Shown here piece after piece: positions 2,330 through 62,238 of a DNA stretch of 64,000 bases (position 1 is its first letter; each line of letters starts with the position of its first letter). Origin of the DNA: Lewinellaceae bacterium SD302 (lineage in GTDB: Bacteria; Bacteroidota; Bacteroidia; Chitinophagales; Saprospiraceae); the NCBI GenBank assembly GCA_002591745.1, contig PDLQ01000014.1, positions 1 to 64,000 on the forward strand, given 5' to 3'. The notes under the pieces were generated by a model. That model was not told where the DNA came from, did no database searches, and worked only from the letters and a program-made list of their open reading frames with translations. Position numbers and translations under genes: made by a program.

Positions 2330-2693
2330 AGTAATTCCTCCTCTTCCCCTCCAGGTAATCCACGTAGTCCACGCTGCCCAGTCGGAAACGGAAAGGGGTG
2401 CCTACGGCTTCGTCGATCTTCACTTCCACTCGGCAGAAGAATGCGAGGTGAGGGCGGTACATCAGGGAAGTACCTGGCTTTTGTCGCACGGCTACTTTGA
2501 AGTCCCCCGGCTGTAGCATCAGCGTCTTCAAATCTCCGGGTGGAGTCTTATCATTTTGACTGACAAAGTAGCTATGCTGGAAGGAAACAGGAAGTAAAAA
2601 CTGCGGTGCATGAGCAACGGACAATTGAGCATTCAGCTGGTTCACGGTAAGTGAAAGCAACAACAAAGCAAAAGTTTTTATCAGATCAGCCAT
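2328..2693 (-). CDS. Small secreted protein, unknown function
   Basis: 121 residues with a clear Sec signal peptide (LIKTFALLLLSLTVNQLNAQ) ending near residue 22, so exported to the periplasm or beyond. The mature part has no recognised domain and ends in basic and aromatic residues. Two copies of the window-wide GCTACTTTG repeat lie inside this coding region in inverted orientation (2491-2499 and 2564-2572), encoding DFKVA and YFVSQ. That is odd for a protein-coding segment and suggests the DNA was partly built from, or interrupted by, the repeat. The gene converges with the VWA gene. Family unknown. Confidence 0.6.
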   Translation of the reverse strand: MADLIKTFALLLLSLTVNQLNAQLSVAHAPQFLLPVSFQHSYFVSQNDKTPPGDLKTLMLQPGDFKVAVRQKPGTSLMYRPHLAFFCRVEVKIDEAVGTPFRFRLGSVDYVDYLEGKRRNY

Positions 2694-2849
2694 CAGTAGT
2701 TCAAACGATCAAGTGGCCTATAAGTTGCCGGTAAAATTTCCGGGAGCAAAGTTGAGGTAAATAATCAATCGTAGTAAACCAGATGCATCGTTTGAGGTTG
2801 TAGACGGGTATAGCAAATCGCTACTCGGGCACGTAACTAAAACCAACGA

Positions 2850-3737
2850 ATGCCATTCTTTCTTAAAAATCTTAGTTACTCACCTATTTCTGCCAGGTTG
2901 ATCCAGGGAGATGAATCAAAATTACTCTATAAAGTAGAGTTACAAGATTACGTCAGAGCATTTTGCGGGGCCCTCTTTTTTGCCGTTCCACTGCACTATA
3001 CCATGGAAATGTGGGAAAGAGCGCGGGTAATGGCCGACGTGGACCTGATTATCGTCACGGTTTTGGCGTATTTGGCTAATGTCGGCTACAGCGTTTTTTC
3101 CGGTCACAAGGATGCAGAATCGAGAAAAGCACCCTGGTGGGATGCAGCGGTTTCCCTCAGCGTCGGTATGATTGCGAGCGCGATCACCCTTTTACTGATG
3201 GACCAGATCACCCACCAGATCAGTTTTGAAATCACCGTAAAAATGATTGCCCTGGAAGCCTTACCCACCAGTTTCGGTGCAAGCCTGGCCCGTAACCAGT
3301 TGGGGGGTGGTGATCCGGCCAACAAGCCTCACCTGGAAGATCAGTTTTCAGTGGATGTACGCAAACTCATGGGCACTACTCTAGGCTCCCTGATGTTTGC
3401 GTTCAATATTGCCCCTACCGCAGAGCCCATCATCATCGCCAACTCCCTGGGCTGGCACCAGGTGATTATGATCATGATCTTTTCCGTCATCGTTTCTTAC
3501 GCAATGAATTTCATGGCCAATTTTGTGCAGGAAGACGATGACGGTGCCGTGATGCTGAGCAACGACTGGGTAGAAACCTTTGTCTCCTACGCCATCGCCC
3601 TTATTGTAAGTGCTGCCTTACTCTGGACCTTCGGCTACCTGACCATTGACACTCCGCTGGATTTTGCTCTTCCCTGGATCATTGTTTTGGGTTATGTAAC
3701 AAATCTGGGCGGCTCGGCCGGGCGGCTTGTCCTATAA
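2850..3737 (+). CDS. TIGR02587-like integral membrane protein (DUF2391)
   Basis: 295 residues with about seven hydrophobic segments, starting near residues 35, 65, 105 and 125 with several more in the C-terminal half. The N-terminal part (YVRAFCGALFFAVPLHYTME), the GASLARNQLGGG segment and the final TNLGGSAGRL stretch fit the TIGR02587/DUF2391 family of inner-membrane proteins of unknown function. In other genomes this family is encoded next to a TIGR02588 protein, and that is the case here: the next gene starts 18 nt downstream and fits that family, so the two are an operon and probably one membrane complex. No biochemical role is known to me. Confidence 0.75.
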   Translation: MPFFLKNLSYSPISARLIQGDESKLLYKVELQDYVRAFCGALFFAVPLHYTMEMWERARVMADVDLIIVTVLAYLANVGYSVFSGHKDAESRKAPWWDAAVSLSVGMIASAITLLLMDQITHQISFEITVKMIALEALPTSFGASLARNQLGGGDPANKPHLEDQFSVDVRKLMGTTLGSLMFAFNIAPTAEPIIIANSLGWHQVIMIMIFSVIVSYAMNFMANFVQEDDDGAVMLSNDWVETFVSYAIALIVSAALLWTFGYLTIDTPLDFALPWIIVLGYVTNLGGSAGRLVL

Positions 3738-3755
3738 ATCTCAAAGAAAACGACT

Positions 3756-4289: not shown

Positions 4290-5549
4290 TCAACGACGGT
4301 TTATCTTGATCGCTTGCATCGCATCATCACTCCGCAAGACCAGGAAAAAGGTGCCATCGGGGAAATTCGCGGGCAAACGATAGCTTTCCGTGTAGCTGCC
4401 CGGAGCTATACGCCCCGTGGCCAGATTGCTGAGGTGGCGGCCATCCGCACTGAAGAGGTCGATCCGGTGGTTGGTGGGTCGAGTAGCTTCCAGGCGATAA
4501 TTTAACTGCTCATGCACGGGGTTAGGGAAGGCCGTCAAAATCGTGTTACGGTGTACGGGCAACTGGGCGGTAGAACTCACGACCGTAGTGTCTGACTGAT
4601 AATAATGTATCGCGCTCCCCCCGGCAAACAGTGTCCCGTCGGGGCGGCTGTAAAAGCGATTGATATTACTGGGGATGCCGGCCATGCGCGTCCAGTTATC
4701 ACCACCGTCCTGGGTAAGGTAGCCGGGGGAATTACGGGGACTCACCCAGCCGGTCTGCCCATCGAGAAAGCCAATGCCCTGAATGTCGTTGAAGGTCATC
4801 TCCACCACTTCTTCCGTCCAGTTCTCACCGCCGTCGTAGGAGCGGGCGATGGTCGTACTGGGGCTGAAAAGACTCTCGATGGAGGCGTAAAGCGTATCGG
4901 GGCCGACGGGAAATATCTTCCAGACATAATCAGCGGGTATGGCCGAGGTAAAGACGTTGCGCCAATTGTCACCACCGTCGTCAGTACGGAGAATTACAGC
5001 CCCTTCCGCCTCGCTGATGCCTCCGATGAATCCTGTCTGTTCGTTCCGGAAATAGACCTCAACCAGCCCGTCAGCCAGGCTGTCCAGGCTGGAGATCGTC
5101 CAATTTTCACCCCGGTCGGTACTTTTGATCAGCACGGCGGGGTAGGCGAAGATACCGACGCCCCAGACCACATCGTCCTTGTGTTCGAAACCACAGATGC
5201 CGGCTCCGGGAGACAATTCCAGATCCACCTGCGTCCAGTTAAAACCGCTGTCTTCAGTTTTGAAGATTCGTCCACTCAGGCTACTGGTGAACCCCAGGGA
5301 ATCGTCCAGGAACTCCACCGCTCTCAGGTATTCTTCCGGGGGGAATATTTCCGTGATCACCCAGCTTAAACCGCCGTCGGTAGTGCGCAGCACGGGGCCG
5401 TCGCTGGAAACGGCGAAGCCGAGGCTATCGTTGACAAAGGTGAGGTCTTCATAACGCTGAGGACCAAAGGTGCCCGGGACAGTCACCCAACTTTGACCGG
5501 CTAACAAAGTAGCAAGGCTGGTAAAGAGAAATAGTATCGCACAGCGCAT
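4290..5549 (-). CDS. Type IX-secreted YCF48/BNR-like beta-propeller protein
   Basis: 419 residues. Signal peptide at 1-18 (AILFLFTSLATLLAGQ). The body holds repeated units with TxDGGxxW motifs (TTDGGLSW, TEDSGFNW, STDRGENW, RTDDGGDNW, SYDGGENW, TQDGGDNW), typical of YCF48/photosystem II assembly-factor-like or BNR propellers, with blade repeats of ~45-60 residues. The last ~80 residues (AFPNPVHEQLNYRL, then LFSADGRHL and FFLVLRSDD) form a type A Por secretion-system sorting domain, which directs export across the outer membrane and attachment to the cell surface. A GCTACTTTG repeat copy (5505-5513, minus strand) lies inside the signal-peptide codons. The propeller's ligand is unknown. Confidence 0.85.
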   Translation of the reverse strand: MRCAILFLFTSLATLLAGQSWVTVPGTFGPQRYEDLTFVNDSLGFAVSSDGPVLRTTDGGLSWVITEIFPPEEYLRAVEFLDDSLGFTSSLSGRIFKTEDSGFNWTQVDLELSPGAGICGFEHKDDVVWGVGIFAYPAVLIKSTDRGENWTISSLDSLADGLVEVYFRNEQTGFIGGISEAEGAVILRTDDGGDNWRNVFTSAIPADYVWKIFPVGPDTLYASIESLFSPSTTIARSYDGGENWTEEVVEMTFNDIQGIGFLDGQTGWVSPRNSPGYLTQDGGDNWTRMAGIPSNINRFYSRPDGTLFAGGSAIHYYQSDTTVVSSTAQLPVHRNTILTAFPNPVHEQLNYRLEATRPTNHRIDLFSADGRHLSNLATGRIAPGSYTESYRLPANFPDGTFFLVLRSDDAMQAIKINRR

Positions 5550-5734: not shown

Positions 5735-5762
5735 CCTGCATAGGACAGAAAACGAGGGATTA

Positions 5763-8700: not shown

Positions 8701-11700
8701 GTGAGATACCGGCAGATATCCTGACGCCGCTTTCCTATACCAATGGATTAAATAATGACTGTGCCCTTTCCGGCCAGGTCAATCCGTTCATTGTCAGTGG
8801 TGTTGATGAATGTGGCGGTGATCTGGTGGTTCGCTGGGAATACATTTCACCCTGTGGAGATGTAATAACCAATGATCGCATCATCACCGTGCTGCCCGTG
8901 CCGGACCCGATCTTTATCGATCCGCCCGCCGACTTGGTGTTAGGCTGTAACGAAGATTTTCCGATCAATCCACCCCTGGCCTACGACAATGGTGGACAGG
9001 GCGATTGCCAGATATCCGGTACGGTGACGCCACAAACGATCGTGGTCAGTGACGTGGAACAGGTTTATCGCTGGGTCTATACCAGTAATTGTACCGGTGC
9101 GACGCTGGTCCATCTACAAAATGTGACACTTCAGGAGGGGCTGGAAATAACGGTGACGCCCACCGAAGTGACGATCTGTGAAGGCGGAGCTTTCGACCTC
9201 GACAGCGTAAATGTAATGGCCACTAACGGAGAAATGCTGACGATCACCTTTCACTCCGCCACCCCGGCCGATACCGGTAATGAACTGCCATCGTCAATGG
9301 TGAGCCCTACGGATACGACGACCTATCACATCCTGGCCGATGATGGCAACGGCTGTACGGTAGAAGCCACTTTCGTGATAAACATTGAAGCTGCTCCCGA
9401 TGCCGGTGAGGACGGAAGCGATCAGATATGTGCAGCCGATGCCGCCAGTGTAGACATTGCTACTTTGCTAGGCGGAAATCCCCAACCTGGAGGCAGCTGG
9501 CTGGACCCGGACGCCACAAATGTTAACCTGATCGACCCCGAAGACGTGGATATGTCCGGCCTCATGGCGGGCAGCTATACTTTCCAATATGTGACGGCGG
9601 CCGGCGGCGAATGTACCCCGGATACGGCCAACGTGGAAATTGAGCTTTTGCCTCCGGTAGAATTCGAAATTCTCAGCCTGAACTGCTCCGCCGACCTGAT
9701 GTTTTATGATGTTTTTATCGATGCAGGCAATCTGACGATCACCAACAGCGGTGGCGGTACCCTTAATGACCTGGGCGGTGGTCAATTCAGCGTCACCGGT
9801 ATCCCGATCGCCAACTCCATCGATGTGACGGGTACTAACCCGGATAATCTGGACTGTTCAACGACGGTGACGGTGAGCCCGCCGGATTGTAATTGCCCGA
9901 ATGTAGCACCCCCGGTAGCCGGTGGCCCCTTCGTGATCTGTGCAGGTGAAGTTAATCCGGCACTGACGGTAACGGTCATGGCCGGACAAACGGCCAATTG
10001 GTACGATACGCCCACGGGTGGCACACCTTTTCTGAGTGCCGCCCTTAGCTTTACGCCCACGGAAACGGCGGTTGGTGTTTACGAATATTACGTGGAAGCC
10101 GAAGAACTCGTCGACGGTTGCGTCAGTTCTCTGCGGACGCTGGTCAGTCTGGAAATCAACGCCAATCCAGCAGGTAATAACGCAACGCTTACGCTCTGTG
10201 ATACGGATCAGGATGGACTGGCATTATTTGATCTTACCGATGCCCAGCCTCAGATCAGTAACGTGCCGGGACTGGCCTTTACTTATTACGCCTCATTTGA
10301 GGACGCGGAAATGGGGGAGGACGCGTTGGGGACTGACTATATAAATACAACGCCATTCGCCCAGCTTGTTTTCGTAGTAGTGGAAAACGGAGACGGTTGT
10401 ACGTCGATCGTGGAACTGGAATTGATCGTCAACTTGCCACCCGTTTTAGCGTTCGATGTTACGAATGAAACCTGTCTGGGAGATAGCGACGGAACCCTGA
10501 TGGTGACCACCCCCCCTGGCGAGAGTTACAGCATCAACGGTACTGATTTTACGAGCGATCCTTTCTTTCCTGATCTGGCTGCCGGTGACTACGTACTGTA
10601 CGTGGAAAATACCGCCGGTTGTGTGGATTCGGCTGACTTCAACGTAGCAGTGGGATTGGAGCTGACATTGTCGATCTTCAACTTCAGCTGCGATAATAAC
10701 GGGACAAGCAGTGACCCCGATGACGATTTCTACACTTTTAACTTTACGGTAGATAACAACCAGGGTAACGCAGGGACTTACACCGCCTTTGACGGAACGA
10801 CGAACTGGGGAAGTTTCACTTACGGAGACCTGAATTCCTGGACACTGCCCGCCGGCACTCCCGCCTTTACGGTGACTTTTACTGATGATTCGACGGGCTG
10901 CTCCACCGAAGAGAGTGTTCCCGATCTGACACCCTGTTCCTCGGATTGCCAGCTTACGGCCGACACCTTTGAGTCAGTTTGCTCCGACAACGGTACCGAC
11001 GAGGACCCCTCTGATGACTTCTACACGTTTACCGTGAATGTTTCTGCCCAGAATGGTTCGGTGGCCAACACCTACGATATCCTGGTGGGGGCCGGCCTGA
11101 TCGGTACTTACAATTACGGAGAAACGATCACTTTTACCCTGCCCGCCGACGGTAGTAGCCCGAATGTACGCTTTGCGGATACGGAGAGCCCTTTCTGTTT
11201 GCTGGATCAGTCGGTAGGCCCGCTTGTTCCCTGTTCCGGAGGTTGTACCTTATTGGAAACCGTCGCTAATATTCTTTGCGACGATAACGGCACTGGTCTG
11301 GACCCTACGGACGATACCTTCACCTTCGAATTGACCATTAGTGGTGTTAACCTGAATGGATCGACCAGCTGGAGTGCCGAGCCCGGTGGCTGGAGTGGCA
11401 CTTACGGGACCACGACCATAATCGGGCCATTCCCGATCGGCGACGGCCCGCAAAACCTGACGATCACCGACGACGCGAATATGGAATGCCCCGTCACCAT
11501 CGACGTGATGCCACCAACCGCCTGCTCGGACGATTGCGCCCTGGAGATCGTAGATCTTACGGTAAGCTGCAACGACAATGGCACCATCGCTGATGATACG
11601 GATGATTTCTACGATATCACCGTAGATGCCACGGCCATCAATATCACTCCGGCGGACAGCTTTAACGTGTTGGTCGACGGAAATCTCCAGAGCGTTTTCG

Positions 11701-14562: not shown

Positions 14563-14726
14563 GCTACTTTGAAGACAAAAAAGAACTTAGAAACCAGAGT
14601 ATAGAAAATAGACTGCAGTTCTATAGTGCTGACTACACTTTCGCGTTGAAGTGATAGCTAAAAGCACAGCGGTCTATTATCTATGCTCTTGCAGCGCAGC
14701 TGTCTTCTTTAAACTAGCAAAGTAGC
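14563..14726. repeat. Imperfect palindrome bounded by converging GCTACTTTG copies
   Basis: The 308-nt gap 14553-14860 starts with GCATTGCTACTTTG at 14558-14571 and contains its inverse at 14718-14731. Between them, AAGACA and a TATAGAAAATAGAC-like segment have imperfect inverse matches, so the whole ~165 bp can fold back on itself. No ORF is present. It could act as a terminator for the giant gene, but its ends belong to the window-wide repeat family. Confidence 0.55.
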
Positions 14727-17756: not shown

Positions 17757-20700
17757 TTACTCCACGGTAACCCACTGTCCTTTAGTTCTGGCCATCACCT
17801 CCGGATCGTACATTGCTTCGGCCAACTGACTGGGTAGGTAATAGCGGCCGGGATAGGCGGCGGTCATCCGAATCCGGTATTCCTTACGGCGATTGTAACG
17901 GACGTTGAAGAACGTATTGACCTGGGCGTCGCGATAATCCTGGTATCGGTAACTGTTGTCGGTGCGGTCGCTATAGTCGCCATCCTCGTAGAGACGGTCG
18001 TCTTCGGATTGAATGAAGCCCATGCGTTCGTTGTTGATTTCCCAGCCACTGGCGGCGATCTGTTGCAGGGCCATGTTCTGGTAGTAGCGGTATCGATCGG
18101 TCTTGGGGGCAACATTGTAGACTGCTATGAAATCAGTACCGCTGGTGAGGTTGCTAACATCCAGTGGATTACCGTCCAGATCTTCGTAGCTGACACCTAG
18201 TTCAATACCATTAGAGCGTTCCACTTCCTCACCTGGCAGTGGCTTACCGCTGAGGATGGTCGTGGCGTAAACGGTTGTGTTGCCATTGTTGCGTAGGGTG
18301 AAGTTGCCGTCACTCGCCGTGGGTAATTCGATTTGAAGTAACCCGCTATTAGCCGCCAGTTGATTACTGCCACCATCGGGGGCTACGTAATCAACGTTGA
18401 CCACTTTGCTGCCCTGGGCGCTGATCTCAGCGTACTTAGTGAAAGCGGTAATGACGAAGGCAGCTTCCTGGGTGTTCAGGTAACGGCGGTCACCGACGTC
18501 CCTGGCCAGACGTAGAGCGAGTTGACCGGCGCGATCATTCATACCCAAACGCCCATAAACGGATAATAGGATAGCGCGATCACGGACACTGCTACCGAAA
18601 GTATAGCCCAATTCTCGGTAGTCTTCAATGACAACATTATTTGAAGTGAGTAAATCACCGGCAATGGAAGCTTTGCCGGTCAGGGCATAGGCGGCGGCCA
18701 GGAAAGAACGGGTATTGGTATTCAGCGATTTACCGGAACGGAGTCGGTTCATGGCACCCAAATCCGCCTTGTTGGCCAGAGCCAGGGTGAAAAGACGGTA
18801 AGCGTGGTCGAATTGTCGCTGCTGCGTGCTGCTGTAGTAATCGTAAGCCGAAGAGCTGCGCCAGTTGGCCACCGCATTTTGCTGGTACTTGATCAGCCGG
18901 TCCTTGGTACTGATGGGGATGGTGTAACCGGCGGCTTCTGCCTCCAGGAAGAAATGGAGGATGTAATTACTCGCCCAGGGGTGGGCTTTTGAGGCTCCGG
19001 GCCAGTAGCCCATACCACCGTCGGAAGTCTGGAAATTAACGAGCCGGTCGATGCCGCCCCGGACGTTGTTCTGCACTTCCTTTTTACGCTCGTCGGTCAG
19101 TTCCACCATCTTGTCCAGATTGACCTGGGCGAAAGCGGGGCCGGTGGTCTGTTCGGCGCAGCCGTAAGGATAGCGGATCAGGTAGCGGAGATGACGGTCC
19201 AGGTTCAGCGGCGGGAGCGTACTGACTTCCAGCGTAGCTTCCCGGCTATCCATATCCCCGAAAGGATTGTAATCGAAAGTTTTGCTCTCGCCGGCAGCCA
19301 GAACAAGATCTGTTGACCTCGATTCCAGGGGGTTGGGGTTTCGGACGTCGATCTCAATTTCCTGGGTAGTTTGAATGCCGTTACCTTCTGCCTTGACCAC
19401 GAAGCGGGCCACTCCGGTTCTCTGGCCGACCTGGAAGGGGAAACGAACCAATTGATCTCCGGGAGCAGAGAACGATACGGCCCGCGTCTTTGCTACTTTG
19501 AAGTCAACCAAACCACTTTCCTCCGTCACTGAAATGTTGGCATTTTTTACTTTACCGGTCATGGCGAATACATTAACGGGTAGTTCCATCGTCTCGCCCG
19601 GACCAATGACGCGGGGGAGGGTAGGGAGGATCATAAGGTCTTTGCGCACCGGAATGCTTTCACTGGCCTTTCCGTAGTTGCGGCCGCCTTCGGCGACGAC
19701 CATAACCCGGACGGCCCCAACGTAGTTGGGCATCGTGAAATCATGGGTAGCCTGGGCACCTGCAGCCAGAGAGAATGGCCCCAGGTGCATGACCACCGGC
19801 TCGAAGCGATTGGCCTTCTTTTTTTCGCCATCTCCATCCGCATCGCCGCCACCTACTGCCAGGATGCGGTTGAACTTGCCGTCCATACTACTGATGACTT
19901 GGTTGTAAAGATCGTAAGTGCGTACGGGCAAGGCCTCTTTGGCGAAAAAATCGTTCCAAAGGTCGGGCGTTTTAAAACGGGTGAGGCCCAACAGCCCCTC
20001 GTCTACAATGGCCAGAGTGTAATTCATGGATTGCCCATCGGCTTCGGCGACGGTGACGGAGAAGTTCTGCTCCGGCTCGTATTCGGTAGCGGTGGCTATG
20101 GTTGGCTCCAGTCTTGTTTCAGGATCGACCACCCGGATCGGGATAATGCCGTACTGTCGGATCGGTCGCTTGTTGATTGTTTCAGCGTGGGGCTGGATGA
20201 GCATGACCGAGGCATAAACGTTGGGTACCATCCGCTCGTCGAGTTGGATTGGGATTACCGACTCGCCGGGGGCTGCTTCAATCCAGCGGGTATCGATTAC
20301 GCCTTCTCCATTTTCCAGGGTGAGCAGGACCATACCACCGGATTCGCTGGAAAGGGTAATGCTGGTACTTTCGCCCGGAGCGTACTCCCGATCTTCCATA
20401 CGGAGGGGTAGCATGGCGGCGGCGTCCTTGTCGGTCTCGGTCCAGCGGGGGGAGCCTGCGTAGAAATAATCGCCGGAACAGTGGCCGCTTTCGGTATCAC
20501 AGACGCGCAGCAAGTAACGTCCCCAACGAGGTACGGTTACACTGACTTGCCCCCGGCCGTCGACGCTGGTAGTGACATCGTAGGTTTCGATGGCATCTTC
20601 GTGGCTACTGCTGTTGAAGCGGCTGACGTTATCATTATCGTCTTGCCACCAATAGCGCCACGTGACCCGGTAGAGACCAACGCTTAGATTACGGCCGTCC

Positions 20701-24160: not shown

Positions 24161-24340
24161 GCGACTTCAAAGTAGCAAAGCTTCTGGGAATCCAGCACTT
24201 TTCGCTGTCCAACCAGAGCAAGACGGGAACGGGGTACGGACGAGCCCGGGATAATCAGGGGGGCGATTCCCGACTAAGCACGTTGGTTCGAGGTATTCGT
24301 ATGAGATACAATTTCCCGGAAACCCTGCTACGTTGAAGCC
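24161..24340. repeat. Inverted-repeat element carrying GCTACTTTG-type ends
   Basis: Left arm 24161-24191 (GACTTCAAAGTAGCA, then TTCTGGGAA) is matched in inverse by 24311-24340 (TTTCCCGGAAACC, then TGCTACGTTGAAGCC), about 25 of 30 positions. The ~120-bp interior has no ORF. It lies between the Lon-N gene and lepA, and the arms are one exact and one diverged copy of the window-wide repeat. Confidence 0.6.
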
Positions 24341-28444: not shown

Positions 28445-28641
28445 TTTCGTCAGTACGGTCGAGGAGGTGCGACGGTTCGGCCCGGCGAATTTCTTTCAAG
28501 ATAGTTTCACCCCAGATGATTGTTCAGAATGCCTCCCGCGTCGACCGATCGATCAAGGTTAATCGGCTCAAGCCAACACTGCTACTTTGAAGCCCGGAAA
28601 AACGATTAACTGAATAACTAATAATTTTCAACTACCTAACC

Positions 28642-35751: not shown

Positions 35752-36327
35752 ATGAAAATTGAAAAATCTCTCCGTGCCCGAGCTGGAAACCAATGTGAAC
35801 TCAGCGGAGCCGTGGATGATCTGGTTATCCACCAGGTCGCTCCCTTCGAAGATGAAGCCTTGGATCACGTTATCCTGATCACTGCTACTTTGAAGTCACA
35901 AATAGATAACGACGGTACGGAGAAAGCTAACGACTGGCGCTGCCTGAACGAAGCCATCTGGAGCGAAACCGAAGCCGTTAAAGTGGTTGCTTACCGAATG
36001 TTGCACCGACTAAAAAGCGAAGGATGGCCGGCCGACCTGCTGGACATGATGTACCTGGACGAAAATACACTGGCCTGGGCAAAACAAGGGATGCCCGACG
36101 AGAACGCCGTAGTACACCTGGATAGTAACGGCAACGTCCTGCAAGCCGGAGACTCCGTGGTGCTGATCAAAGACCTGAAGGTGAAGGGGGCCAATTTTAC
36201 CGCAAAACGTGGCACCGCAGTTCGCCGCATATCATTGGTACACGACAATGCTGGCCAGATCGAAGGAAAAGTGGAAGGACAGCACATCGTAATTCTGACG
36301 GAATTCGTAAAGAAGCAGCTAAAGTGA
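35752..36327 (+). CDS. PhnA/YjdM-like protein
   Basis: 191 residues. The C-terminal ~70 residues (LDSNGNVLQAGDSVVLIKDLKVKG, then KRGTAVRRISLV and EGQHIVILTEFVKK) are a typical PhnA domain. The N-terminal part (RARAGNQCELSG) sits where related proteins have a CELCG half of a zinc-binding pair; here the second Cys is Ser, so zinc binding at this site is doubtful. PhnA proteins were named for phosphonate genes, but their biochemical role is not established. A repeat copy (GCTACTTTGAAGTC, 35884-35897) lies inside the reading frame and encodes ATLKS. Confidence 0.8.
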   Translation: MKIEKSLRARAGNQCELSGAVDDLVIHQVAPFEDEALDHVILITATLKSQIDNDGTEKANDWRCLNEAIWSETEAVKVVAYRMLHRLKSEGWPADLLDMMYLDENTLAWAKQGMPDENAVVHLDSNGNVLQAGDSVVLIKDLKVKGANFTAKRGTAVRRISLVHDNAGQIEGKVEGQHIVILTEFVKKQLK

Positions 36328-38913: not shown

Positions 38914-39198
38914 AGCGTAGATAAATTTTAGTTCGTGCAAATAGCTTGCGCACTATCTAATGCAAGGGACGTGCCATGTACAGGTGTTGCGGGTAGTGAC
39001 TGACGGAATGGCGGTAAGATTGGTAAGGAGTTGAAAATGTGTCAGTTGGGGTGTTGGTTTTTGAGGGCAAAGTGGCAGATAGTAATGCTTGCACCCAACC
39101 ATATCGCTGTTTTTAGACTCGGTATTTGGAGGAGGACTTCAAAGTAGCAATGCTAACTTTTAGAATCTGAGCCGTTAATTCTGATTAATTGACATACC
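38914..39198. other. Divergent intergenic region between dnaK and a small secreted protein
   Basis: 285 nt with no ORF. It holds a GCTACTTTGAAGTC copy on the minus strand (core 39140-39148) and a near copy CAAAGTGGC (39068-39076). No CIRCE-like inverted repeat and no clear -7 box for dnaK was recognised. Confidence 0.5.
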
Positions 39199-42561: not shown

Positions 42562-42981
42562 GACTTTTATGGCTAACAAAGTAGCAGTATTGGTGAAGTT
42601 AAACGGTCTTACAGTCTAACGGTCTTACAGTCTTATGGTTTTACAGTCCGGCCGGAGCCCAGATCCGCAAGGCCGCAAGGCTGTAATACCAGTAGACCGT
42701 TAGACTGTAAGACTGTAAGACTGTAAGAACGTTAGACTGTAAGACTGTAAGACCATAAGACCGTAAAGCCGCACTAACCTTGCTACTTTGAAGTCACCTG
42801 CATAATTATTCTTCCGAAACAATTTCGAACCAACAATGAACAAAAGCGTATATTTGCGCTCGCTTTCGTCAAAACGGGTCTTGGGAGGCCCCGACCGACG
42901 TAGGCGTTTTTCATTTTTTCACCTTCTTCAAAGGTCGGGCGACCGCGTTCGTCGGACCCTGGATTCTTAAACCATTTCATT
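42562..42981. other. Repeat-filled leader region between the 42004 gene and secDF
   Basis: 420 nt without an ORF. It contains GGCTAACAAAGTAGCA (42571-42586), six octamers of GGTCTTAC/AGTCTAAC type (42605-42652), nine octamers of GACTGTAA type (42695-42766) that pair with them, and TGCTACTTTGAAGTC (42781-42795). A TATATTTG -7 box for secDF follows at 42849-42856. The ~120-nt leader after it holds overlapping complementary segments (42890-42896 with 42933-42939; 42895-42900 with 42950-42955). Confidence 0.7.
42571..42795. repeat. Long imperfect palindrome of octamer repeats bounded by GCTACTTTG copies
   Basis: The outer ends are inverted copies of the window-wide repeat facing outward. The arms consist of 8-nt units (TTACAGTC on one side, GACTGTAA on the other), so the ~225-bp block can fold into one long hairpin. 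Confidence 0.7.
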
Positions 42982-49350: not shown

Positions 49351-50053
49351 GATTAAAAGCCTTTAGGATCACGAGGATCGGTGCAAGCGAAAAATTTCGA
49401 GCTGCAAAAGTACAACATCATTTGGATATGTACAAGGCTGAAGTGTATGCCTTCTCATAAGCATTGACCATTGGTCTGACCCTGCGAAAATATATACGTC
49501 CCAGCCACAGCTTTAACAGGATTATCTGTTGTGAAAAAGGAGCGGTAGGGGAAGATGATGGAAAAAAGTGGACCTTCGAACCATCGGGAATAAAAGTGCG
49601 TCTTATCTTCGGTCCCGAAGCAGAAAGCTCCTGGCATTCGCTAAGAGCTTGTTTAGGAATTCACTCATCGTCCAAAATCGACTCTTTCTGGCCCAGACTT
49701 CACCTCGAAAATAGTCAGTTATCCCGATAGCCTCCCGTTTTCGACGATTATCTGAACCAAAAATAGCTTGATTTTGACCAGACTCGGAAATCCCAAACAA
49801 GCTCTAACATTGCTACTTTAGCTTCGCTGATCGTCGCTGGGGAATGGGGAATATAGCCCTCGCTATTTACTCAGTTTTGCTACTTTGAAGCCATAAAGAC
49901 AACTAATCGATAAGTTGCTCTTCGGAGTTGTTAGTCAAAATAGCAGAGCCGATGATGGGGTGAAAAGTATTACTTTTTTCAGCTCAAAAGCTGAGGACTC
50001 TCTTTCCTTAAACGAAGCGTTCTAACACCAAACCGACAAAAAGCCTGACAACT
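49351..50053. other. 703-nt intergenic region between rpsO and terC
   Basis: Contents: the 162-bp element with terminal inverted repeats (49644-49805), a repeat variant GCTACTTTA (49812-49820), an exact GCTACTTTGAAGCC copy (49879-49892) and a small TTTCAGCTCAAAAGCTGA hairpin near 49978. Short open frames at 49455-49800 are not convincing genes. I looked for a yybP-ykoY manganese riboswitch in front of terC and did not find one. Confidence 0.55.
49644..49805. mobile_element. 162-bp non-autonomous element with ~19-bp terminal inverted repeats (MITE-like)
   Basis: Left end AGAGCTTGTTTAGGAATTC (49644-49662) is matched in inverse by GAAATCCCAAACAAGCTCT (49787-49805) with two mismatches. No transposase is inside. 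The GAGCTTGTTT-type end resembles that of IS5-like elements, which I recall only in general. No clear target-site duplication could be read from the flanks. Confidence 0.65.
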
Positions 50054-50988: not shown

Positions 50989-50992
50989 CCCC

Positions 50993-52465: not shown

Positions 52466-53991
52466 TGAGCCGCACCAGATGGCAACGCTGGCGATTACCG
52501 TTTATATGCTTCTTACTGGCCGTTGGCTGGTTCGGGGCACTTTGGGTGATCGATCTGAGAGGGGAAGAACCGCGTCGTGCCCTGGTAGCCTGGGAAATGC
52601 TGAAAAGCGGCGATTACCTACGCCCCACTATTCAGGGAGAGCCCTACTACAACAAACCACCACTTTTCAACTGGTTGATCGCCCTTTGTTATCAGATATT
52701 CGGTACGGAAAGCTGGGTAGTACGCCTGCCTTCGCTGCTTGCCTACGTACTCTGGGGCTACGTGAACTTTCGGGTGGTACGCCGATACCTGGACGCTAAA
52801 ACGGCCCTCTGGTCCACTCTGTTTTTCTATACGGCCGCTCATTACCTGTTCTTCGGTACCGTACTGGCCGGGGAGTTGGACCTGTTGTACGGATTTATCG
52901 TTTACGGCCAGGGTGTAGTTGTTTTTCATTACTTCCTGCGGCGACAATGGTGGCAACTTTTCTTTTTTTCCTACTTCCTCCTGGGGCTGGGTTTTATGAC
53001 CAAGGGGTTGCCTTCTGTCGCTTATCAGGGCCTTACGTTCATTGGATTGGCGGCTTTCGGTCCGTGGTTGCGGGCAGCGGTGGAGGAAGATGAATTTGGA
53101 CTTCAAAGTAGCAGAGCCAGTAGTTTCAAAGAAAGATTCGGCTGGCTATTGGACTACCGGCATATTCTCGGGGCTTTAGCTGGTCTTGCTCCGGTGATCC
53201 TGTACTTCTGGTACTACGACCAAAGATACGGCAACGGTGATCTGTACCTATTTAACCTCGTGGAAGAAGCTTCCCAGAAATCCGTGACCGAAGGCGGGGG
53301 GCTGGAAATAGTGCGGCATGTTTTTGAATTGCCTTTTCAATTTTTAATCGACCATTTGCCCTGGGTGCTGCTCTTGCCCTACGGAATCTGGAAAGGCTGG
53401 CAACGGGAGGGGCTGGACCGGCCATTCCTGCGTTTTTGCATCATTTTTTTCGGAGTGAACGTGATCCTGTACTGGTTATCTCCCGGTGCCAGAATTCGTT
53501 ATTTCTATGGGTTGGTACCATTTTTCTTTACGCCATTGGCCTATTGGATGCTACGTCACCGACCGCTCAAAATGCGTTATCTGTGGATCGTGCTATTTCT
53601 ATTGGCCGGCCTGCGCATTGTTTATAATTACAGCATATTACCCTATCAGCAAAAGACCACTGGCACTATTCAGCTTTACCGTCAGATCACAAACGATGCG
53701 TTGCACTACGCTGCGGGAAAGCCACTGTACACCTGCTGCGAAGCTGACACCATTTTGGTTGACCCGTCGATTGCCGGATACACCCTTTTACGGGATACGA
53801 TTTTCATTCCGATGTACACTCCTTATCAAATTCCACTCTATCTGCAAAGGGAGCGGGACGAGTGGTTGCCATTTCAGCGTGACCTCGAGTCGCCCGGCAT
53901 TTATCTGAGTACCGATACGGTGGGCGGTAAGCTACTGGAAGAATACCAGGTCTGGGATGATAAAACCCTGCGCTTATTCAAAATAGAATAG
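52462..53991 (+). CDS. ArnT-like membrane glycosyltransferase
   Basis: 509 residues with ~11 hydrophobic segments. The first loop has DLRGEEPRRALVAWEML and YYNKPPLFNWL, the RGEEPR and KPPL motifs of ArnT-type GT83 enzymes, which transfer a polyprenyl-linked sugar to lipid A or related acceptors at the periplasmic face. The start overlaps the stop of the preceding GT39-type gene (ATGA), so the two are translationally coupled. A repeat copy (GACTTCAAAGTAGC, core 53104-53112) lies inside the gene and encodes LQSSRA, in a different frame from the other coding copies. Confidence 0.82.
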   Translation: MMSRTRWQRWRLPFICFLLAVGWFGALWVIDLRGEEPRRALVAWEMLKSGDYLRPTIQGEPYYNKPPLFNWLIALCYQIFGTESWVVRLPSLLAYVLWGYVNFRVVRRYLDAKTALWSTLFFYTAAHYLFFGTVLAGELDLLYGFIVYGQGVVVFHYFLRRQWWQLFFFSYFLLGLGFMTKGLPSVAYQGLTFIGLAAFGPWLRAAVEEDEFGLQSSRASSFKERFGWLLDYRHILGALAGLAPVILYFWYYDQRYGNGDLYLFNLVEEASQKSVTEGGGLEIVRHVFELPFQFLIDHLPWVLLLPYGIWKGWQREGLDRPFLRFCIIFFGVNVILYWLSPGARIRYFYGLVPFFFTPLAYWMLRHRPLKMRYLWIVLFLLAGLRIVYNYSILPYQQKTTGTIQLYRQITNDALHYAAGKPLYTCCEADTILVDPSIAGYTLLRDTIFIPMYTPYQIPLYLQRERDEWLPFQRDLESPGIYLSTDTVGGKLLEEYQVWDDKTLRLFKIE

Positions 53992-54051
53992 CGTAAAAAC
54001 GAATCGGCCCTAAGATCCCAGCTGCTTATCTTCACGCAAAACATTGCTACT

Positions 54052-55152
54052 TTGCCAGCCATACTCATCATTTCCTCCTACGCAGACAGCCTCAATGCGG
54101 TTCGCCCCGAAGGACGACTGTTTGTCGGTCTGGCCCGTGATCACGGCTGGGAAGTCACACTGATGACCCAGGACGGCAGCCCCTACACCGATGTGATGAA
54201 GGCAGCCGGCGTACGCATTATCGACTGGCACCCGACGGGTAAATTTCAGGCTGCCTCGGTACGTAAGATCAGGGAAGAATTAAAACGGGGGAAATACGAT
54301 ATCCTCCACCTCTACAACAACAAAGCCATTGTCAATGGCATCCGTGCGGCCCGTGGGTTGCCGGTAAAGGTGGCGACCTACCGCGGCTACACGGGAAACA
54401 TTAACTGGTGGGACCCCATCAGTTATCTTCAGCACCTCAGCCCCCGGGTTGATCTGATCACCTGCGTTTCCCCGGCCGTAAAAGAAGTTTTCGACCGGGT
54501 ACCGTTCTTTAATACCAACAAGGCGGTGGTAGTCGGAAAAGGTCACGAACCGGCCTGGTATCAGAAGGTGGAAGCCCTGGATCTTAAAAAGGAGTTTGCG
54601 ATCCCGACCGACCGAGTCACCATCGCGGTAGTCGCCAACGCCCGGCGAATGAAGGGTATGAACTACCTGACGGCGGCCATGCGTAAATTGCCCACCGGAC
54701 TGCCGCTCCATTTCCTGTTCATCGGCCGGGGGCTGGATACTAAAGCTAACCTCAACGATATCGGTAAGTCAGCTTACTCGGACAGGGTAACCTTCGCCGG
54801 CTTCCGCAAGGACGTACTGCGTTTAATAAAGGCTGCGGACGTAAGCCTGCTACCCAGCGTGAAGGGGGAGGGACTGAGCAAAGTTTTACTGGAGAGTATG
54901 TTCCTGGCCCGGCCGACCATAATGACCAGTATCGGAGGAAATCGCCACCTTGGGGTAGATGGTGAGACGGCTCTGATCGTACCACCTCGTGATGCCGCCG
55001 CCCTGGCCGATGCAATTGAAAGAGTAGCCAAAGACGAGCCGCTCCGGCAGCGGATCGGTCCGGCGGGAGAGACATACGTGACCAGGTATTTTAGTGCTGA
55101 AGTTTCTGCGGCCGAGTTGAACGATGCCTATCACTCGCTATTGAACGCATAG
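54052..55152 (+). CDS. GT4-family glycosyltransferase
   Basis: 366 residues. GT-B fold: an N-terminal acceptor domain with ILIISSYADSLNAVRPEGR, and a C-terminal donor domain with VVANARRMKGMNYL and GEGLSKVLLESMFLARP, whose second Glu fits the conserved donor-binding position. No signal or membrane helix; cytoplasmic. The start is uncertain: the only upstream start in frame is a TTG (54052) that is part of the GCTACTTTG repeat (54046-54054), and no ATG begins near residue 1. It follows the two ArnT-like genes by 60 nt, probably in one surface glycan cluster. Confidence 0.85.
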   Translation: MPAILIISSYADSLNAVRPEGRLFVGLARDHGWEVTLMTQDGSPYTDVMKAAGVRIIDWHPTGKFQAASVRKIREELKRGKYDILHLYNNKAIVNGIRAARGLPVKVATYRGYTGNINWWDPISYLQHLSPRVDLITCVSPAVKEVFDRVPFFNTNKAVVVGKGHEPAWYQKVEALDLKKEFAIPTDRVTIAVVANARRMKGMNYLTAAMRKLPTGLPLHFLFIGRGLDTKANLNDIGKSAYSDRVTFAGFRKDVLRLIKAADVSLLPSVKGEGLSKVLLESMFLARPTIMTSIGGNRHLGVDGETALIVPPRDAAALADAIERVAKDEPLRQRIGPAGETYVTRYFSAEVSAAELNDAYHSLLNA

Positions 55153-56872: not shown

Positions 56873-57206
56873 GATTCGAAAATTTTAAGCTAAAGGCACG
56901 GCTACTTTGAAGTCAAAAAGAATGAACGGTCAATTGCTCGGAGCCACGTCTGCCATGGAGAAAAGGGTCAGTAATCTACCGTTCAACTACTGGTATTTGT
57001 TGTGGCTGACAAAGTAGCAATGCCGGTCAAAGGCCAATTTAGCAAATTTAAATTTCGTGAAAAACGTAAAATTCAGTTAAATGGAGGATTGTGCGAATGA
57101 TTGGCGGAATAGTGCAAGGGTTCGCCGGTCACTACTCCTAATTTAGAGTATTCGAGGCGCGCAACGAACTTTCAACTGCGCCGATCATGCAAAAACCGTT
57201 CTAATT
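56873..57206. other. Divergent promoter region between araC-type gene and aldB
   Basis: 334 nt. It contains a converging repeat pair (56901-57018) with an internal GAACGGT/ACCGTTC hairpin. Closer to aldB, a direct repeat GTGC...GTGC with 21-nt spacing (57091 and 57112) is a candidate activator site. No ORF or clear -7 box was seen. Confidence 0.5.
56901..57018. repeat. Converging pair of GCTACTTTG repeats with internal inverted repeat
   Basis: GCTACTTTGAAGTC (56901-56914) and GGCTGACAAAGTAGC (57004-57018) face each other. GAACGGT and ACCGTTC inside them pair, so the ~118-bp block forms an imperfect palindrome. Confidence 0.6.
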
Positions 57207-58730
57207 ATGAGCACTACCGCAACCACCACCGCGGCTACTTACGCCAAGCCTGCCTTTAAAGACCAGTACGAAAATTACATCGGCGGCAAATGGACCCCGC
57301 CGACCCGTGGCGACTATTTCGACAACATCTCGCCCGTAGACGGGCAATCCTTCACGCGTATTCCCCGCTCCACTAAAGAGGATATCGACAAAGCCGTCGC
57401 CGCTGCCTGGGAAGCCGCAGACCACTGGAACAATACTTCGGCCACCGAGCGCAGCAACATACTCCTTAAGATCGCTGACGTGATGGAACAGAACCTCGAA
57501 GTACTGGCCCGCGCCGAAACCTGGGACAATGGTAAAGCCCTTCGCGAAACCCGCGCGGCCGATCTGCCCCTGGCCGTTGATCACTTCCGCTACTTTGCCG
57601 GAGCCATTCGCGCCGAAGAAGGTGGCGTTTCCGAACTGAACAGCTCCACCGTTTCCATGAACGTCTGGGAGCCGCTGGGGGTTGTCGGCCAGATCATCCC
57701 CTGGAACTTCCCCATCCTGATGGCCGCCTGGAAACTGGCCCCCGCGCTAGCCGCCGGCAACTGCGTGATCCTGAAACCAGCCGAGCAAACTCCCGTAGGC
57801 ATCCTGCTGCTCATGGAGATGATCGAAGATATCCTGCCCGCCGGTGTACTCAATATTGTTAATGGCTTTGGAGTAGAGGCCGGTAAGCCACTGGCCAGTC
57901 ACCCGGACATCCGCAAGATCGCCTTTACCGGAGAGACTACCACGGGTCAGCTGATCATGCAATACGCCAGCAAGAACATCATTCCCGTTACCCTGGAACT
58001 GGGCGGCAAGAGTCCTAATATCTTCATGAAGAGTGTCATGGACGCCGATGACGAATTTTTCGACAAATGTCTGGAAGGTGCCGCTATGTTTGCCCTCAAC
58101 CAGGGAGAGGTCTGTACCTGCCCGAGCCGTATCCTGGTTCACGAAGACATCGCCGACGCCTTTATCGAGCGTTTCATCGAACGGGTAAAGGCCATCAAAA
58201 TGGGGCACCCGCTGGACCCGTCGACCATGATGGGCGCCCAGGCCAGCAACGACCAGTACGAGAAGATCCTCAAGTACATCAAGATTGGTAAAGAAGAAGG
58301 CTGTGAGGTCCTCGCCGGTGGTGATGCCGCTTACGTAGACGAGCTGAAAGGCGGCTACTACATCCAGCCCACCGTGCTGAAGGGCAACAATAAAATGCGC
58401 GTCTTCCAGGAAGAGATCTTTGGCCCGGTGGTGTGTCTGACTACCTTCAAAGACGAAGCAGAGGCCATCGAGATTGCCAACGATACGCTCTACGGATTGG
58501 GTGCCGGACTGTGGACCCGCGACATGCACGAAGCCTACGGCATAGCCCGTAAAGTGGAAGCCGGCCGCGTTTGGGTAAATTGCTACCACGATTACCCCGC
58601 TCACGCACCCTTCGGTGGTTACAAAAAGTCCGGCATTGGCCGCGAGAATCACAAGATGATGCTCGACCACTATCGCCAGACCAAGAACATGCTGATCAGC
58701 TACAACAAAAGTGCCCTCGGGTTCTTCTAG
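57207..58730 (+). CDS. aldB: Aldehyde dehydrogenase, AldB/acetaldehyde dehydrogenase type
   Basis: 507 residues, the normal length. NAD(P)-binding ILKPAEQTP (188-196) and FTGETTTGQ (240-248) precede the catalytic Glu264 ([10 protein letters not shown]) and Cys303 ([11 protein letters not shown]). The C-terminus [13 protein letters not shown] is conserved. It oxidises acetaldehyde or similar aldehydes to acids. The EVCTC context and the adjacent DUF779 gene match the AldB/ExaC group. The divergent AraC regulator probably controls it. A strong hairpin separates it from the DUF779 gene, so read-through may be partial. Confidence 0.93.
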
Positions 58731-59772: not shown

Positions 59773-61761
59773 TCATAACAGAGACCATTTAATGCCTACG
59801 GAACCATTGATGCCCGCCGCCGGCTGGAAGTAACGACCCCCAAAACGCGGGTTTAGATCATTGCCGAAACTCATCCGCTCATCCAGTAAATTGCTGCCGC
59901 TGGCGTGGATGGTGAACAGCCCTACGCGGTAAGCCAGCCGCAGACGAACCAGGTGATAGGACTCCCCGAATACCGTATTGGCATCGTTCAAGGGTATGGC
60001 ATCGGTGTAATTATAATTGAGACTGGCGGAGAAGCGGCTTTCTGAACGATAATCTACGATCAGGTTGACTACGTGAGGTGCCGTGCCCGGCAGGCGTTGC
60101 CCGCTCACATCCTCTCCCTCACGCTCGTAATCCAGGTAGGTGAAATTCTGGTAGGTATAGCTGGCGTAGAAATTGAGCCAGTCCATGGCACTCCATTCAC
60201 CGGAAATTTCAATTCCCCACTGATCGGTCTCCCCCGCGTTGCGGAATAGCTGCGTGCCACGGTCATCGGAAAAAGCGGAGATGGATTCGTTCAGCCTAAA
60301 TCGATAAGCACTCAGCTCATAAGTCAGTTTTTGGGCCTGTCCTTTTAAGCCAAACTCGTAATTGGTGCCCCGCTCTGCGGCGAGATTGGTATTGATGCTG
60401 CCTTCGTTGGTACGGAATTCGTCGAGGGTGGGCGGACTGAAACCTTCGGCCAGACTGGCGTAGAGGCTGATGTTGCCCAGTTCCTTTAAAACCGAAATGC
60501 GCGGACTCATAGTAGCGGCAAAATCACTGCTGATCAGGGCGGGATCACCGGCAGCGTCGAAGGTGCGGTCTACCTGGTAGCTCAGTTTGTTCAGGCTCAG
60601 GCCGGCCGTGATTCGCCAGCCACCCGCCAGGGCGAGAATGCTTTGGCCGAACAGCAGCCATTGGCGACTGTCGATCTCATCACTGAAGTTCAGTTCGCCG
60701 GGGCTGGCGTCGGGATTTGTGAAGTTATTCGCCATCCGGTACTGCAACTGGTATTCTCCACCCGCACTGATCTTCAGGTAGCCGTTTGGCCCAGCACTCG
60801 TTTGGTAGTCAAATACACTATGCCCGCCAACGCCCAGGTTAGTTTCCCGCTTATAGTCGAAATTGAAAGGGTGGTCGAAGTAAAAACCGGTGGCATAGGC
60901 CCTGCTCTGATTGCTCAACTTACCCCAGTTGTTTTCGCGGCCCAAGCCCAGCAATAGATTGTGATAATTGATGCTGGCGTTCTTATCCGCGCTGCCGGGG
61001 CGGGCCTGGGTAGGGTCTTCCAGGTATTGCTCTTCGTTGAGTCCGCCGGGCAGATCGTAGCTTAGGTCGGTATACAAAAGGTGTAGATCGGTTGCCCGGC
61101 CCAGTCGTGAACTGTACTGAACCGTCTGGCGGAAAAGCCCGGAATGATCCCGGTAGCCATTGGTGCCCTGGGCGGCGTAGCGCAGTTCTTCTTTACCCAA
61201 TTTTACTCTCGTGGCCGTACGGAAGTAACCAAAAGAGCCGCCCGCTACTTCCAACTCAGCCTTTTGTTCCAGACTGTCGGTCTTCAGGAGCAGGGTGCCG
61301 GCATTACCCGCTCCGTAGAGGCTGCCGGCCGGTCCTTTGATCAGTTCGATCCGGTCAACGTTGGCCACGTCCAGGAAATTCAACTGGGTGTCGCCGCCGG
61401 GTTCGGTCAGTGGAAAGCCGTTCCAGTACACCTTCAGGTTCCTCACGCCGAATGGCGAACGCAGCGTACTACCGCGTACGGAAACCCGGTAACTCCCGGG
61501 TGCTCTTTGCTCGAAGCGCACGCCGGCAATCCGGTTCATGGAGGCCAGCAGATCAGCGTCCGGGTATTCGTTGATGGTGGCCTTTTCCAGCACAGCCACG
61601 CTTCCGGCGATTCTTTGGGTGGGCAGTTCGTCGCGGAAGGCACTGACGGTCACTTGGTCCAGTAATAAAGAGTCTTGAGCTTCTAGCAGGGGCGGTTGGA
61701 GGAGGCAGTTCACCAGTACAAGCATAAAAGCAAATACGAGGGTTCTTATGTTGACTAACAA
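59773..61761 (-). CDS. TonB-dependent receptor
   Basis: Up to 662 residues. A signal peptide (IRTLVFAFMLVLVNCLL, ending at QAQ-like LLEAQ) is followed by a plug domain (LLASMNRIAGVRFEQRAPGS, RVSVRGSTLRSPFGVRNL, VDRIELIKGPAGSLYGAGN) and a 22-strand-type barrel with the C-terminal GRYFQPAAG and GSVGIKWSLL. It imports a ligand such as a siderophore or metal complex with TonB-ExbBD energy. It lacks an N-terminal carboxypeptidase-like domain. The start is uncertain: TTG at 61761 falls inside the GCTACTTTG repeat, and ATG at 61725 gives a shorter signal without a basic N-terminus. Confidence 0.88.
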   Translation of the reverse strand: MLVNIRTLVFAFMLVLVNCLLQPPLLEAQDSLLLDQVTVSAFRDELPTQRIAGSVAVLEKATINEYPDADLLASMNRIAGVRFEQRAPGSYRVSVRGSTLRSPFGVRNLKVYWNGFPLTEPGGDTQLNFLDVANVDRIELIKGPAGSLYGAGNAGTLLLKTDSLEQKAELEVAGGSFGYFRTATRVKLGKEELRYAAQGTNGYRDHSGLFRQTVQYSSRLGRATDLHLLYTDLSYDLPGGLNEEQYLEDPTQARPGSADKNASINYHNLLLGLGRENNWGKLSNQSRAYATGFYFDHPFNFDYKRETNLGVGGHSVFDYQTSAGPNGYLKISAGGEYQLQYRMANNFTNPDASPGELNFSDEIDSRQWLLFGQSILALAGGWRITAGLSLNKLSYQVDRTFDAAGDPALISSDFAATMSPRISVLKELGNISLYASLAEGFSPPTLDEFRTNEGSINTNLAAERGTNYEFGLKGQAQKLTYELSAYRFRLNESISAFSDDRGTQLFRNAGETDQWGIEISGEWSAMDWLNFYASYTYQNFTYLDYEREGEDVSGQRLPGTAPHVVNLIVDYRSESRFSASLNYNYTDAIPLNDANTVFGESYHLVRLRLAYRVGLFTIHASGSNLLDERMSFGNDLNPRFGGRYFQPAAGINGSVGIKWSLL

Positions 61762-62238
61762 AGTAGCAGTGTTTGTTGAATAAGTAAGCCGGAATTTAGA
61801 CTAAATTAAAGGCGAAGATAGAGTCTTAGGGAACAATAAAGACCTTGACAAGGCAGCAGCCTAGTTTTAGGGTTGGCATTACAAGCAGATCAAATATTTC
61901 TGCCAATGGATATTTGTTTCGATTTATTAACTGGAGTATTCAAAACGCTGTGGCCTAGATTAGGCATTACCTATCTGCAATGCGTTCCGGTGTTCACTCT
62001 TGCGTACGCTTGAATTGAATCGGGACTGAAACTGCTTATAGAGTTCTTAAAAGAGTAATTCGGGTGACGCTCCGTTTTTACTCGTGCCGTTGCTAACTGT
62101 AAACTTCGGTGAAACTTTTTTTCCTGTTTTGTACTTTCAGATTAACGGGCGGTAGCCGCTGGGTCAAGCCAGTAATGATACCTTTACAAAAACATTGCTA
62201 CTTTGTTAGTCAGAAATAACAACACCCCCCGGTAACAT
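61762..62238. other. Divergent promoter region flanked by identical repeat copies
   Basis: 477 nt between the TonB receptor and the DUF3137 gene. GCTACTTTGTTAGTCA occurs at both ends, pointing outward (cores 61759-61767 on minus, 62197-62205 on plus). The matching stretch is 22 bp with one difference. CAAATAT...ATATTTG (near 61895-61920) is a small inverted repeat in between. No ORF or RNA gene was recognised. Confidence 0.6.

Follow-up and report, generated by a model that had tools for sequence, protein, structure and literature searches.

A dispersed nine-base word with genus-wide dialects and an orientation rule in Lewinellaceae bacterium SD302 suggests a self-recognition signal for DNA transfer

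What does one nine-base word do when it recurs again and again within a short stretch of bacterial DNA? The question is raised by positions 1 to 64,000 of contig PDLQ01000014.1 (assembly GCA_002591745.1) of Lewinellaceae bacterium SD302, a 64-kb stretch hereafter called the window, in which an initial annotation made from the letters alone listed 22 copies of GCTACTTTG and proposed a repetitive extragenic palindromic (REP/REPIN)-like family, an uptake or recombination signal, or a promoter subclass. We show that the signal is real, genus-wide, dialect-bearing and ruled by orientation: the word is in large excess, related species use dialects of it, copies change in place among relatives, both strands carry it equally, and copies are regularly spaced along each strand. 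These features suggest that the word may serve these bacteria as a mark of their own DNA during gene exchange. In our judgement they are probably explained by a genus-wide, uptake-type self-recognition signal for DNA transfer that acts in one direction over several kilobases.

All 22 listed copies proved exact in position and strand, and dinucleotide shuffles of the window contained a mean of 0.29 (100 shuffles, largest 2). The SD302 genome (5.48 Mb) holds 1,533 copies, about one per 3.6 kb, against 80 of the reversed word, which serves as the control in all copies/control figures below. The genome-wide count that the annotation had proposed thus lies far above expectation, and a chance origin is rejected by both the window shuffles and the genome-wide control. 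Strand symmetry, also put forward for checking, is nearly perfect, with 770 forward and 763 reverse copies (43 and 37 for the reversed word).

The word is part of a longer motif. Among 191 exact copies in 644 kb of SD302, the consensus reads R R C (A/T/C) Y T, GCTACTTTG, A or NN, AGYC, and then A-rich sequence; the second block, AGYC, sits 1 or 2 bases after the core, and the downstream bases are AAG in 55 copies, NNAG in 122 and neither in 14. The extended form first described, YTGCTACTTTG followed by AAGYC or TYAGYC, therefore largely holds for YT and AGYC, while (A or NN)AGYC describes the downstream side better. Where the flanks are intact, 149 cores are exact, 19 are changed at position 6 and three carry another single change, so the SD302 core is better written GCTACNTTG. 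The invariance of the core rests on these flank-intact counts and not on the summed conservation, which is about 30 bits against the 12.8 needed for such density, with the core, Y and AG fixed by the search form; a value of this size would exceed what ordinary binding needs, as might be expected of self-spreading signals. In G002, the one relative (relatives are labelled G001 and so on) that we studied as closely as SD302, the core, GCACCNGCG, is preceded by C at -4, Y at -2 and T at -1; with flanks, 90 cores are exact, 14 are changed at the mainly free sixth base and seven elsewhere. The second block of G002, of the GCGCC kind, follows a spacer of 3 in 61 of 101 copies and of 2, 4, 5 or 9 in 20, and our pattern found none in 20. 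The two species thus share a build in which YT precedes a core that begins with GC and has a free sixth base, and a spacer of variable length separates this core from a second block; in each, a weak distal element lies some 14-20 bases upstream.

Counted in 59 relatives, 20 of them in the same genus, GCTACTTTG is mostly near control level (23-81 copies in the same-genus genomes), with a mild excess over the reversed word in three genomes of other genera (G033 179/66, G056 127/27, G028 72/23). Most same-genus genomes instead carry GCACC(T/C)GCG, in up to 1,491 copies. One form, GCACCTGCG, which first surfaced in G002 through a search for over-represented words in sister genomes, reaches the following copies/control: G006 1491/64, G005 1478/29, G014 1374/22, G002 1337/27, G003 949/15, G018 946/31, G015 926/113, G011 830/32, G013 742/117, G010 733/13, G008 729/39, G009 580/38, G020 553/116, G017 347/48, G019 307/103, G012 303/86, G016 258/98, G007 241/121 and G004 150/80; it stays at control level in G001 (73/91) and SD302 (37/38). 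In G019 (968/79), G016 (672/111), G020 (639/134) and G012 (621/85), GCACCCGCG outnumbers GCACCTGCG, as it does by a small margin in G004 and G007. A further dialect, GCTCCYGCG, is found in G004 (863/158) and G017 (607/134) and is raised in G007 (396/171), while the other 17 same-genus genomes have it at 0.7-3.2 times control (highest G018, 164/52). ACCTGCGCTCC marks G001 (379/0) and is scarcer elsewhere, with at most 112/2 in G015 and 95/2 in G007. Since several dialect words are raised in each, G007 and G017 look mixed. A tree of 23 SecDF proteins joins G004 and G017 as sisters (support 100/99) and places SD302 as sister to all 19 other genus members (100/99), with the SD302 branch flagged as long.

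Dialects are also exchanged at fixed places. At 11 distinct orthologous places, nine of them within genes as called by a simple home-made gene caller, the core switches dialect while its surroundings align, which indicates that copies can change in place; eight of these are switches between GCACC and GCTCC among aligned relatives. The core at L082:16230 is GCACCCGCG in G012, and the same place holds GCACCGGCG in G009, GCTCCCGCG in G007 and TTACCTGCG in G001, followed in all four genomes by CTCCGCCGC or CTCCGGCGC. Likewise, L084:11169 reads GCACC in G012 and G009 and GCTCC in G004 and G007, followed by TCCGCGCCC in each of them. The 93 aligned rows are not independent, since many are reciprocal. 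All the other fixed core bases are preserved in 43 of them, where the third core base is always A (27 rows) or T (16 rows) and never C or G, despite a GC content of 59-61% in these genomes. The G001-like form appears in nine further rows, and in the other 41 nothing is shared, which indicates gain and loss of copies as well.

Position and orientation were examined in 1,044 kb of SD302 (19% of the genome), where a relaxed form of the motif finds 294 copies and reversed DNA gives 4. Genes, which make up 82% of the DNA with our caller, hold 115 copies (39%; 50 sense, 65 antisense), and 179 are intergenic: 108 in gaps between tandem genes (57 facing a start, 51 an end), 60 in divergent and 11 in convergent gaps. 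Within the window, the annotation's division into eight coding and 14 intergenic copies becomes six and 16 with this caller; of the 16, 12 point to a gene start, a figure that is partly trivial because copies between divergent genes always do. The copies show no replication-strand bias by GC skew in 20-kb blocks (154 agree, 140 oppose). Their overall spacing is more even than random (coefficient of variation, CV, 0.79 versus 1.07 +/- 0.08 simulated), and orientation governs it. Pairs facing the same way number 8 below 2 kb where 82 are expected, 16 versus 41 at 2-3 kb and 27 versus 40 at 3-4 kb, and about as expected beyond 4 kb. Opposite pairs number 94 versus 82 below 2 kb, with 44 versus 16 under 400 bp and 50 versus 66 at 400-2000 bp; in this last range 16 are convergent and 34 divergent (33 expected each), and G002 has 9 and 9. 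The 94:8 split of opposite to same holds wherever the copies lie (both intergenic 45:5, mixed 30:1, both coding 19:2). Along one strand, gaps average 7.0 kb with a CV of 0.51, a value never reached in 1000 orientation shuffles (0.86 +/- 0.05, lowest 0.73). The exclusion of same-facing neighbours is repeated in G002 (110 sites in 493 kb; 4 pairs below 2 kb versus 24.5 expected), and six other species pooled, with smaller samples, give 16 opposite and 5 same below 2 kb, where about 15 of each are expected.

Within the window, the free sixth position adds three copies to the family (10640, 24327 and 29613), and one of the 22 exact words, at 57589, turns out to be a chance match that lacks the flanks, leaving 21 of the original members:

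2491..2499, plus strand: core copy, inverted pair with 2564
2564..2572, minus strand: core copy, inverted pair with 2491
5505..5513, minus strand: single core copy, close to the start of open reading frame 4290-5549
9459..9467, plus strand: core copy within a giant gene, pair with 10640
10640..10648, minus strand: GCTACNTTG variant with a different sixth base, flanks present, pair with 9459
14563..14571, plus strand: core copy, pair with 14718
14718..14726, minus strand: core copy, pair with 14563
19492..19500, plus strand: core copy, antisense within gene 17757-23405
24168..24176, minus strand: core copy, pair with 24327
24327..24335, plus strand: GCTACNTTG variant, flanks present, pair with 24168
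28581..28589, plus strand: core copy, pair with 29613
29613..29621, minus strand: GCTACNTTG variant, flanks present, pair with 28581
35092..35100, minus strand: core copy, pair with 35884
35884..35892, plus strand: core copy in YjdM-domain gene 35752-36327; the aligned relative has neither motif nor gap
39140..39148, minus strand: single core copy
42577..42585, minus strand: core copy upstream of the SecDF gene, pair with 42782
42782..42790, plus strand: core copy upstream of SecDF gene 42982-46056, pair with 42577
49879..49887, plus strand: core copy upstream of a TerC-family gene
53104..53112, minus strand: core copy, antisense in gene 52546-53991, pair with 54046
54046..54054, plus strand: core copy, pair with 53104
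56901..56909, plus strand: core copy between divergent genes, pair with 57010
57010..57018, minus strand: core copy, pair with 56901
57589..57597, plus strand: chance nine-base match without flanks, not a member, located in the coding sequence of an aldehyde dehydrogenase at a site with conserved surroundings in relatives
61759..61767, minus strand: core copy, pair with 62197
62197..62205, plus strand: core copy, pair with 61759

Upstream of the SecDF gene, within about 600 bp, five of six relatives have a copy in their own dialect, and two of four have one 650-790 bp upstream of the TerC gene; places and orientations vary in both cases. The region 42400-42800 upstream of the SecDF gene also contains short tandem-like repeats (AGACTGTAAGACCGT and so on), and AGACTGTAA occurs nine times in the window. 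Two open reading frames of the window are giant, 5616-14552 (2,978 aa) and 17757-23405 (1,882 aa). The longest motif-free stretch seen in SD302, 19.5 kb of normal GC from L139:14893 to L140:14517 on contig C71, encodes a P-type ATPase, two cation efflux proteins, HlyD/AcrB-type efflux and a response regulator, and resembles a metal-efflux cluster. Repeats of other kinds were seen in relatives: arrays of GGAGCTCCAGCTCCAGG, mostly in steps of 93-186 bases, in G001 (L091:15700-16600 and L095:3700-5400); short arrays of CTATAGCCGTCCAACCG and CCGTCCACCGT in G004 (L097:13078-14154, L100:10467-10508) and G034 (L108-L110); tandem repeats with CCGATTGACC in G021 (L103:11612-11922), where other repeated words cluster on few contigs (L102-L105); and, in G023, about 10 kb with many degenerate one-strand repeats (CCCTTACGGT, GGGATAATGG; L285:1-10500), which is probably one giant repetitive surface protein.

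What could produce such a pattern? It would ask for a reader that acts on one side over a few kilobases, that uses a changeable word, and that draws no benefit from a further copy in the same orientation. From these features we infer a trans-acting reader, a directional act, a role in DNA transfer and a means of spreading. A putative reader protein of the genus would recognise the core (GCTACNTTG in SD302, GCACCNGCG and others in sister species), the YT flank and the second block past its flexible spacer, and each copy would act one way over several kilobases, for example by starting the import or transfer of DNA on one side. A nearby copy facing the same way would then be redundant and would not be kept, while an opposite-facing copy would serve the other side. 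Fragments bearing the motif would enter kin more often, so that copies could spread and be kept by recombination, and a drift in reader specificity would lead copies to change in place to a new dialect. Of the explanations offered by the annotation, the uptake or recombination signal is the one that survives, strengthened by the genome-wide excess, the dialects, the evolution in place and the regular per-strand spacing. The motif may be classed as uptake-sequence-like in its working rather than as an established uptake sequence.

The competence genes that the annotation suggested searching for give a divided picture. ComEC was found in SD302 and in all 18 genus relatives searched. The same genomes have no convincing type IV pilus ATPase (PF00437), with weak partial matches, the best of 24.9 bits lying at the cut-off, and none in G010, whereas two genomes from elsewhere in the order score above 400 bits. 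The best match in SD302 is a ClpB-type AAA ATPase, and its second reaches 22.5 bits. The cognate pilus or receptor that characterises uptake sequences was therefore not found by the PF00437 search, which did not extend to pilins and secretins, and the nine genes near the SD302 comEC include no known competence family (four matched nothing). In Riemerella, another member of the Bacteroidota, transformation requires ComEC, DprA, ComF and RecA together with four unfamiliar proteins (PMC8459023, in part). The occurrence of ComEC without a convincing pilus ATPase is in line with such a need for unfamiliar surface proteins.

Several observations weigh against a DNA-transfer signal. ComEC occurs also in bacteria without known competence. 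No such dispersed word was seen in 64-100 kb from each of five genomes of other genera in the family (G021, G023, G024, G033 and G034), with the weaker words and those of G024 and G033 not inspected singly; the strongest words looked at in G021, G023 and G034 were arrayed locally, confined to a single repetitive stretch, or repeated over short distances at few places. The 41 aligned rows without a shared motif count here as well, as do the GCTCC form that G009 has at two of nine G004 places and the five coding copies of SD302 with an aligned relative, none of which coincides with a motif of that relative and none of which is an insertion. All five same-facing pairs of the pooled smaller samples are in G004 (14 sites; 3 same and 0 opposite pairs below 2 kb) and G001 (2 and 2). 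Copies in divergent gaps face the nearer gene in 44 cases versus 16 (p = 0.0004), a hint of a modest link with gene starts, perhaps through a shared A-rich context. Some genes were looked at in each of six long motif-free gaps, and only the longest resembles acquired DNA; depletion from foreign DNA is not used as support, since only this one of six partly examined gaps looked acquired, and its GC is normal. Uptake by H. influenzae is reported to be unaffected by orientation (PMC1939737, in part), so the directional rule is not a known feature of uptake sequences. Finally, flank-intact cores changed outside the free position are rare in SD302 (3 versus 149 exact), whereas the parts of the literature that bear on this give 764 one-mismatch words versus 1,471 exact in H. 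influenzae (PMC1939737) and more one-mismatch than exact words in Neisseria (PMC3630211). These ratios are not like for like, because the published counts ignore flanks; treated in that way, the 644 kb of SD302 contain 204 one-mismatch words versus 191 exact, and most of these one-mismatch words are presumably chance.

Other kinds of site would share some of these properties. An orientation-dependent binding site for a nucleoid or loop-forming protein that organises the chromosome would fit the regular per-strand spacing and the intergenic preference, and yet its conservation exceeds what binding needs and no site of this sort is known to us whose word differs at hundreds of places from one sister species to the next, so we consider this explanation doubtful. 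A Chi-like hotspot for recombination or repair, which AddAB or RecBCD would read while moving one way along DNA, also offers a directional reading. This would explain the redundancy of same-facing copies and the use of both strands and of coding DNA. Known Chi words, however, have 5-8 bases, against the roughly 30 bits, two blocks and variable spacer found here; the motif has no replication-strand bias; and the Chi sites of E. coli K-12 behave in the opposite manner, with 51 same-facing pairs below 2 kb versus 23.5 expected in 300 kb and a gap CV of 1.2, which makes this reading unlikely. We give a similarly low probability to a start site for packaging or transfer, like that of a gene transfer agent or of conjugation, from which DNA is taken one way until a head or tract is full; such a site would account for one-directional redundancy over a few kilobases and for self-spreading copies, but known gene transfer agents package largely without choice of site.

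The remaining candidates explain less. The promoter subclass proposed by the annotation, or another sigma-factor signal, is favoured by the bias in divergent gaps and by the TTTG end, which we take to resemble the Bacteroidota -7 box. Against it, sister-dialect cores lack TTTG, copies within genes use both orientations, those in tandem gaps face starts and ends about equally, and a housekeeping promoter would be expected to occur in more than one species; the claim is not supported, and the reading is very unlikely. A mobile repeat (REP/REPIN, or a miniature inverted-repeat transposable element) recently spread in SD302 could produce a high copy number in one species, a near-invariant core and inverted pairs. 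The flanks, however, are not copied, sister species have matching systems, the five coding copies and most aligned places show substitution without insertion, and in either arrangement the two members of a pair can lie anywhere between 31 bp and 2 kb apart. By eye, with no folding run, no hairpin is kept across dialects, and the REP/REPIN-like claim, for which no transposase search was made, finds hardly any footing. A transcript hairpin, with GCT pairing AGY as read by eye, was also discarded, since other dialects lack it and both gene strands are used. Deletion between direct repeats would remove direct pairs and spare inverted ones, in which case the spacing would say nothing about function, but the repeats share about 15-20 partly conserved bases, exclusion is strong to 2 kb and visible to 3-4 kb, and the excess and the dialects would be left unexplained; it is highly improbable that the pattern arose in this way.

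A self-recognition signal for DNA transfer thus remains our preferred explanation, and a bolder form of it is conceivable, which we put forward tentatively: Bacteroidota without type IV pili may have a directional, dialect-changing transfer code, a one-sided licence for import or packaging of several kilobases, laid out as two interleaved and regularly spaced sets, one per direction, whose reader has been respecified several times within a single genus, with hundreds to more than 1,000 sites following in place. The uptake signals known to us belong to the Neisseriaceae and Pasteurellaceae, both of which have type IV pili. Among the matches listed in the open-access literature, there was neither an uptake sequence established in Bacteroidota nor a same-facing exclusion rule, which is no proof of absence. 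If our reading is true, a Bacteroidota system without the pilus ATPase would represent an independent origin of uptake signals and provide a direct handle on DNA uptake in this phylum, and on self-recognition dialects that split species. The exclusion of same-facing copies makes the one-directional action of such signals testable, and the exclusion length together with the 7-kb per-strand spacing predicts an import tract of a few kilobases.

How does the motif compare with known systems? Chi sites are dispersed, directional in action and different between species, as the motif is or, for the directional action, would be; unlike it, Chi is short, and the E. coli sample shows a 50/32 split between the strands together with clustering of same-facing sites. 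The DNA uptake sequences (DUS) of Neisseriaceae, as described in part of PMC3630211, number about 900-6,000 dispersed copies in and between genes, with dialects that follow the tree and some mixed genomes. The likeness extends to the many copies in and between genes, the species dialects and the mixed genomes, whereas the present motif differs in its phylum, its two blocks with a variable spacer, its same-facing exclusion, its few one-mismatch copies with intact flanks, and the lack of a detected pilus ATPase. Inverted pairs of DUS are tied to terminators (PMC3630211, in part), while those described here are up to 2 kb apart. A Neisseria study reports, in the part available, that DUS spacing matches the length of conversion tracts and argues that many recent DUS arrived by recombination insertion (PMC2397512). 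The uptake signal sequences (USS) of Pasteurellaceae have a 9-bp core in a 29-bp consensus, with 1,471 copies in H. influenzae in both orientations and many in genes, and were suggested in that work to originate where they stand through point mutation (PMC1939737, in part). The motif resembles them in its 9-bp core within a longer consensus, similar copy number, use of both orientations and genic copies; it differs in that USS orientation is irrelevant to uptake, the core sequences are unrelated and no pilus ATPase was found here. Within the Bacteroidota, Riemerella columbina prefers its own DNA, and its over-represented 10-mers are A-rich, with a role as uptake signals left open in the part of that study that treats them (PMC7965970). 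The likeness here is that of a Bacteroidota member with self-preferring uptake, whose relative R. anatipestifer needs ComEC (PMC8459023, in part).

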